NCBI GenBank assembly: GCA_001003725.1
Contig: LCPR01000008.1
Coordinates: forward strand, 9,891 to 50,820
Origin: Candidatus Saccharibacteria bacterium GW2011_GWC2_48_9
Lineage (GTDB): Bacteria > Patescibacteriota > Saccharimonadia > Saccharimonadales > Saccharimonadaceae
DNA length: 40,930 bases
Reading direction: 5' to 3'
Shown here piece by piece: positions 32,709 through 32,999 of this stretch. Position 1 is the stretch's first letter. The number at the start of each line of letters is the position of its first letter. The position numbers and the translations under genes were made by a program. The notes beneath the pieces are model-generated. The model did not search any database. It was not told where the DNA came from and worked only from the letters and a program-made list of their open reading frames with translations.

Positions 32709-32763
32709 GTGTACACGCTACACTACTCGGCTATAATGCGCTCGATGATGCGAGTGAATATTG

Positions 32764-32788
32764 TATAATGGAAGTATAGCAAAGGAGG
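32764..32788 (+). promoter_or_regulatory. Promoter and unused perfect Shine-Dalgarno in the leader of the 20-aa gene
   Basis: TATAAT (32764-32769) should start a transcript near 32776. AAAGGAGG (32781-32788) is a perfect anti-16S match, but the only following ATG (32803) is 14 bases away and opens a three-codon frame (Met-Lys-Ile-stop). The peptide gene itself begins at 32862 with its own site. The leader of about 85 bases may be regulatory. Confidence 0.5.
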
Positions 32789-32861
32789 CTGCCAGCGACA
32801 TCATGAAAATCTGACATATCCTGCAAGTAAATCAAATAACTATATATGAAAGGATATCATC

Positions 32862-32924
32862 ATGGCAAAAGGTAAAGGTCACCAAAAACGCGAAACCCGC
32901 AAACCACCCAAGAAGGACAGTTAG
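32862..32924 (+). CDS. 20-residue highly basic peptide
   Basis: ATG 32862 is preceded by AAAGGA with a 7-base spacer, and the frame ends at TAG 32922-32924. It encodes MAKGKGHQKRETRKPPKKDS: eight Lys/Arg in 20 residues, three Gly or Pro clusters, no hydrophobic segment. Such composition fits an RNA-, ribosome- or nucleoid-binding peptide, or a very short conserved orphan. The promoter, Shine-Dalgarno, ORF and following hairpin form a complete unit, which supports a real gene despite its size. I cannot name it. Confidence 0.65.
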   Translation: MAKGKGHQKRETRKPPKKDS

Positions 32925-32948
32925 GCACTACTGTCACTACAGCATACT

Positions 32949-32970
32949 ACAGCCGGTTCACGCCGGCTGT
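32949..32970 (+). terminator. Stem-loop after the 20-aa gene
   Basis: ACAGCCGG (32949-32956) pairs with CCGGCTGT (32963-32970) around a 6-base loop. The downstream tract ATTGTATTTG is only moderately T-rich. It may serve both strands, since the converging gene ends at 33000. Confidence 0.7.
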
Positions 32971-32999
32971 ATTGTATTTGAAGTAAGCATAGGTATTAC

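Follow-up and report, generated by a model that had tools for sequence, protein, structure and literature searches.

A small gene for a basic peptide of 20 residues lies in a window of 40,930 nucleotides (the whole stretch of DNA that was analysed), taken from a Saccharibacteria genome of 1.07 Mb that is 97.75% complete. Between 32764 and 32971 the window carries, in this order, a TATAAT hexamer, AAAGGAGG, 14 bases, a minigene, 47 bases which include a second Shine-Dalgarno sequence (SD), the 20-codon open reading frame (ORF) and a hairpin, with the following features.

32764..32769, + strand: -10 hexamer TATAAT, with which the promoter scan paired no -35
32781..32788, + strand: first SD (SD1), AAAGGAGG, close to where the transcript is predicted to begin
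32803..32814, + strand: three-codon minigene ATG AAA ATC TGA (Met-Lys-Ile-stop); ATG, two sense codons and a stop in 12/12 units
32812..32822, + strand: putative anti-SD2 strand UGACAUAUCCU, made up of the minigene stop and the next bases; duplex with SD2 of -8.7 kcal/mol, with co-variation
32849..32854, + strand: second SD (SD2), AAAGGA, belonging to the peptide gene; pairing predicted (P 1.00 for GGAU, 0.79 for AAGGA)
32862..32924, + strand: gene of the 20-residue basic peptide, MAKGKGHQKRETRKPPKKDS and stop; matched by the family profile A4 in its own genome at E 6.9e-9, the window peptide itself being a row of that profile
32948..32971, + strand: terminator-like, GC-rich hairpin, its stem found by scan

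A sequence-only reading had named the TATAAT, AAAGGAGG, SD2, the 20-codon ORF and the hairpin, each of which was found in its place, and had taken them for a complete small transcription unit, a proposal that is supported. An equal layout was read in 12 loci from 8 genera. Just before the main -10 lie another TATAAT (32732-32737), preceded at 16 nt by TGTACA, and a small hairpin (32739-32756). No tRNA was detected in the window by ARAGORN and no Rfam family matched it at the gathering score, while the flanking genes, one of 199 aa upstream and one of 297 aa downstream on the opposite strand, gave no Pfam match above the cut-off. A search of the own genome found no 3' end of 16S rRNA; that of the genus mate G002 carries CCTCCTTT. 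Pairing of the SD1 region with this end beyond the SD itself was considered and set aside, since on inspection by eye L001 lacks the additional matches present in L002 and L003.

A family of tiny basic peptides

The peptide belongs to a family of tiny basic proteins, of 17–27 residues in the members read, most of which share a [KR]KPK core from which L090 and L094 deviate. A search with the 20-mer among 100 genomes matched three, namely the own genome and two of its three genus mates, with no match in other genera. A sequence-only model of the first three loci extended this range, matching 168/392 genomes at E <= 1; most matches were weak, but the seven best all proved to be the unit described here, and additional peptide copies came to light in other genera. 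Profile A4, built from 11 peptides, matched 82/392 genomes of the class and 54/152 genera at E <= 0.01, ten of the 82 genomes having themselves supplied rows to the profile. In a sample of the phylum it matched 14/379 genomes at E <= 0.001, five of them outside the class; four of these five were read and all resemble members of the family (e.g., MAKGNTHQKKEVKKPKKAKKK), the fifth lying in G777. None of the A4 matches listed in the class and phylum searches holds an internal stop. In the genus mate G002 the peptide was found neither by the 20-mer search nor by profile A4.

The conserved ORF and intact frame in relatives were the two points on which the sequence-only reading had staked its peptide gene. 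The ORF stood up on both, and is by these comparisons a member of a real family. It matched no Pfam or NCBIfam family at E up to 1, a search in which so short a query has little power; the same low power applies to the comparison of profile A4 with PDB sequences, which gave no hits at E up to 5. A ribosomal protein or a solved relative as the identity of the peptide was set aside on this empty PDB search. Plasmid homologues were not found by tblastn, where the low-complexity filter probably masks the peptide. The peptide may resemble short proteobacterial proteins of the form MAKGQ...KKPK.

The peptide also occurs without the leader described below. In 24 such leaderless loci the pattern GGAG-N11..17-ATG-N6-stop was absent (0/24) within 150 bases upstream, and an SD-like 4-mer stood in the last 18 bases upstream in 20/24. 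One genome, G135, carries two copies, one with the minigene leader (L016/L101) and one without (L058). Three leaderless loci of genus g36 (L062, L070, L072) have in common a different motif, TCCGGTGGAAAGG, ahead of the peptide ATG, which is perhaps a second type of leader. A conserved protein of 69–83 aa lies directly downstream of the peptide in 9/24 leaderless loci (L065, L068, L069, L071, L074, L075, L076, L077, L081), separated from it by -8 to 12 nt and bearing a motif like LYPD..MPFV.KH..YL..HP..NP..YL.NLRLM; two examples gave no Pfam match. Neighbours with a link to RNA adjoin some leaderless copies, comprising RNase HI (6/24), an RRM protein (4/24) and a DEAD-box helicase (4/24), with some loci counted twice. 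Pfam confirmed the RRM (L078, L079), DEAD (L069) and RNase H (L072) neighbours, the others being assigned by sequence likeness. An RNA-related role of the peptide is plausible at this level and no more, the peptide itself being probably an RNA- or ribosome-binding protein.

With regard to genomic context, L101, L102, L103, L105 and L106 each have a type IIG restriction, KAP-NTPase or type I methylase gene no more than 2 kb away, and RadC-type genes lie near three of the ten units with longer flanks, that of G135 showing the N-terminal domain alone. Mobile or defence cargo was set aside as an explanation; the proximity of five of these ten units to such genes is a raw count. No defence-type genes were seen among the scanned part of the neighbours (Pfam) of the own genome, G001, G003, G425 and G041, with PADLOC accounting, among those five genomes, for one G425 protein.

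A three-codon minigene conserved in the leader

The strong SD close to the predicted start of the transcript had been described as idle, with no proper ORF behind it. It is, however, followed at 32803-32814 by ATG AAA ATC TGA, a frame kept in all 12 units, and on this comparison SD1 is not idle. The relatives were collected with a second sequence-only model (R2) of seven leaders, run over 394 genomes of the family, which matched 18 genomes at E <= 0.001. All 18 were read and 12 carry the unit, composed of -10, SD1, three-codon ORF, SD2, peptide gene and hairpin; three (G053, G253, G295) have the peptide with the leader absent, while the matches in G506, G420 and G492 look like chance, lying around the SD of unrelated genes. 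In every unit, the window included, a TATAAT or TATACT ends 7–17 nt upstream of GGAG, the GGAG of SD1 is present, a short ORF with its own SD lies upstream of the peptide gene in the predicted shared transcript, as expected by sequence of an attenuator, and a comparable hairpin follows the peptide stop (by eye). The distance from minigene stop to peptide ATG is 44–53 nt. Occurrence within genera is patchy, at 1/9 genomes in g38 and 2/10 in g25.

Conservation within the minigene is confined to its two ends. All 12 units keep the ATG and have a stop (TAA, TAG or TGA) as their fourth codon, whereas the encoded peptide varies between MKI (own genome), MKS (G001, G003, G047, G217, G425, G494), MKR (G135), MKY (G041), MGI (G019), MGV (G495) and MSK (G045). 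Identity over all pairs of units is 1.00 for all three bases of the start codon and for the T of the stop, against 0.38–0.70 at the six bases of codons 2 and 3. Both models were trained on leaders with ATGAAA and favour the MK form, which makes the deviating units the informative ones. A fixed start and stop around variable codons is the pattern expected from selection on a translated minimal ORF. Conserved leader-peptide residues, as would be expected of an arrest peptide, are absent among these seven forms, and arrest by the nascent peptide or starvation for a particular codon is disfavoured by the variation of codons 2 and 3. The earlier suggestion of a Met-Lys-Ile minipeptide acting as leader control is supported as to a minipeptide and its leader role, though not as to its particular residues.

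The minigene of the window, taken alone, is not beyond chance and becomes significant only through its relatives. GGAG-N13..16-ATG-N6-TGA occurs there once against 0.19 expected, with at least one occurrence in 18/100 shuffles, and the version with a TAR stop is absent from the window against 0.35 expected. A scan of 84,980 species genomes for the pattern gave ten hits, five of them known units and five outside Saccharibacteria, which have no basic ORF nearby and were taken as chance. A stricter pattern gave three hits in 294 genomes of the class and four in the reversed control, so that there is no excess by number and the weight lies in all three being the unit of this genus. The chance-level count in the window, the shared ancestry of all units and their patchy occurrence would suit a minigene inherited by chance, or neutrally, from a recent common ancestor, the peptide gene alone being of importance. 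Such neutrality, already disfavoured, is very improbable, because in L091, L092 and L094 codons 2 and 3 have diverged while the ATG and stop have not.

The position of SD1 is unusual as well. GGAG stands 13–16 nt before the ATG (14 nt in 8/12 units), and the aligned SD1–ATG spacing is 12–15 (13 in 8/12), compared to 3–9 for SD2 on the identical transcripts. Lying outside the range of SD2, this spacing may render initiation at the minigene weak. A spacing of such uniformity is probably of consequence, through slower initiation or by making SD1 a docking site. Being longer than usual, it would also leave room for SD1 as a trap for ribosomes or anti-SD, a further proposal of the sequence-only reading, though no such decoy is needed. 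In a related explanation SD1 is a site of ribosome standby, where a 30S subunit docked 13–16 nt from the ATG would keep the leader open for SD2 and translation of the minigene would be incidental. The uniformly distant SD1 fits this well, yet the ATG and codon-4 stop persist in all 12 units while the codons in between change, and standby is held to be improbable.

Predicted pairing of SD2 with the minigene stop region

The SD of the peptide gene is predicted to be sequestered in most units. The pairing probability of the SD2 core is 0.83–1.00 in 9/12 units and falls to 0.64 in L093, 0.55 in L018 and 0.20 in L092. The usual partner is the minigene stop codon with the bases after it (around 14), as in AUAUCC with GGAUAU in the window and UAGCAUUC with GGAUGCUA in L019; in L018 the probability of the SD2 core being paired with the stop region is 0.06. 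Cognate anti-SD2/SD2 duplexes reach -5.4 to -16.7 kcal/mol in 10/12 units, with weak ones in L092 (-4.7 kcal/mol) and L093 (-3.7 kcal/mol). Compared to shuffles of the spacer, pairing of SD2 with the stop region is stronger over the 12 units (Fisher p = 1.5e-4, uncorrected for kinship), with L001, L003 and L094 below 0.05 singly and L017 at 0.050.

Co-variation was assessed by swapping the anti-SD2 and SD2 halves among units and comparing the energies of cognate and permuted duplexes. The cognate mean is -9.57 against -7.29 kcal/mol for permuted pairs (p = 1.6e-4 over 12 units; 5e-5 in an earlier run), and the difference persists with one unit per genus (8 units, p = 3.6e-4) and without L018, L019 and L090 (p = 0.0064, the weakest of five subsets). 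Two mock regions of equal length showed no co-variation (p 0.56 and 0.998). Only for L019 does the cognate SD2 come first among the 12 partners of its own row, the ranks running from 1 to 9, so the co-variation is a mean effect. Judged from these sequences, the anti-SD2/SD2 pairing is likely but short of proof, and two lineages show it weakly.

This co-variation bears on another explanation, in which SD1 and the minigene form a purely negative upstream ORF (uORF), intercepting and releasing ribosomes that enter from the 5' end, or causing drop-off of peptidyl-tRNA, and thereby lowering the amount of peptide, with SD2 pairing secondary. A strong SD at the 5' end and a fixed minimal frame with free codons fit such a sink equally well, but it makes no prediction that bases of the stop region co-vary with SD2, and it is regarded as unlikely.

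Counting against the pairing, RNAalifold found no common helix among all 12 aligned leaders; for the first seven units it gave 12 pairs, two of them changed on both sides, at only -2.31 kcal/mol. Among three leaders compared with shuffles only L003 is more stable (z -2.59), L001 and L002 giving z +0.86 and +0.72. A switch made of RNA only, such as a thermosensor or a binding site for a protein or ligand, with ATG and stop incidental, would be in keeping with the thermosensor-like pairing of SD2 and the significant fold of L003; the peptide might, for example, regulate itself through its own leader, being basic and having RNA-related neighbours at some leaderless copies. Against this, the window has no Rfam match at the gathering score, conservation tracks the roles of the codons and no fold common to all 12 units was found, leaving an RNA-only switch quite improbable. 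SD2 resembles the consensus of a CsrA site, but a CsrA-regulated leader was rejected, as PF02599 has no match in the own genome (97.75% complete) while 3/14 control genomes were positive.

Proposed translational attenuation by a minimal uORF

The preferred reading, held with moderate confidence, is that the unit forms an independent gene for a small basic protein, the translation of which is attenuated by a minimal uORF. Sequence comparison shows the anatomy, the kept minigene, the co-variation of anti-SD2 with SD2 and the peptide family; that the minigene is translated, which way the switch acts, what its signal is and what the peptide does are inferred. The transcript would begin just upstream of SD1. 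At rest, SD2 would be bound by the minigene stop and the bases following it, with the minigene start in some units also engaging the region of the peptide start, so that little peptide is made. A ribosome initiating, pausing or terminating on the minigene would then cover the anti-SD2 strand and free SD2. By the description in PMC8708949, a ribosome covers around 20 nt upstream and 13 nt downstream of the initiator codon. Positioned at the minigene start codon it would thus cover the stop and little beyond; once the minigene stop had entered its A site, most of the anti-SD2 strand would be covered. Given the size of this footprint, occupancy of a three-codon ORF should disturb the mask on SD2, and induction by ribosome stalling on the minigene may be predicted.

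The signal would be ribosome occupancy, in the form of slow initiation, early elongation or stalling, or slow release. Given the variable codons 2 and 3, the switch would respond to occupancy rather than to one amino acid or an arrest peptide. A more specific and tentative form of this reading, about which there is more doubt than confidence, is a sequence-independent occupancy sensor, in which selection would maintain nothing but an initiation codon, two codons of any kind and a stop, spaced at a constant distance from a strong SD. A single ribosome, when initiating or terminating there, would with its footprint cover the strand that masks the next SD, and a tiny RNA- or ribosome-binding protein would be made in proportion to the delay in initiation or release, in the setting of an episymbiotic lineage with reduced genomes.

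Related arrangements are known. In the erm and cat attenuators the main SD is masked and is released by a ribosome on the leader ORF, which requires arrest within a longer, sequence-specific leader peptide; the masked SD has a predicted counterpart here, whereas the sequence of the leader peptide varies. The bar minigenes of phage lambda are very short ORFs with a strong SD, a likeness to the present case, and are toxic in trans through drop-off of peptidyl-tRNA, of which there is no sign here.

Attenuation by uORFs as a kind is established, and a four-codon case has been published in the tetQ leader of the Bacteroides transposon CTnDOT, a translational attenuator for which stalling at the start codon has been suggested as the signal (PMC12121999; PMC5418344; the stalling proposal is from PMC12121999). 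The likeness, drawn from citing descriptions rather than sequence or structure, would lie in the attenuation of translation by a uORF of very small size; tetQ serves tetracycline resistance on a mobile element, whereas here an endogenous gene for a protein of around 20 residues is preceded by three codons and a stop in 8 genera. The toiL uORF of E. coli topAI-yjhQP comprises eight codons, and stalling anywhere within it is proposed to unmask the next SD (PMC12121999). Both uORFs have their own SD, and the pairing of toiL RNA with the SD downstream has a predicted counterpart here, but the first seven residues of toiL are conserved and termination there is Rho-dependent, while here only the Met is conserved, in three codons ahead of a small gene ended by a hairpin. 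The axe-txe system has a two-codon minigene whose distance from stop to next start is said to be crucial (PMC8708949). It likewise offers a minimal leader ORF acting in cis on the next gene; by the same account it stands 15 nt before txe with no evident strong leader structure, compared to 44–53 nt and a predicted paired SD2 here, and is proposed to act by mRNA protection and coupling, its length not being critical in the tested range, whereas here exactly three codons occur in 12/12 units.

Among the open-licence papers listed by the searches, none was found on a uORF of three codons that is kept in several genera, has free codons and gates a protein of around 20 residues; the peptide strings likewise appear in no paper. 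The family adds proteins of around 20 residues, spread across Saccharimonadia and present in other Patescibacteria, with no Pfam or NCBIfam match. If the attenuation reading is true, an endogenous gene of these bacteria would carry a leader ORF that is conserved and close to the lower limit of size, a simple and testable switch, and control by uORFs would be able to run on ribosome position alone, without a fixed peptide sequence.
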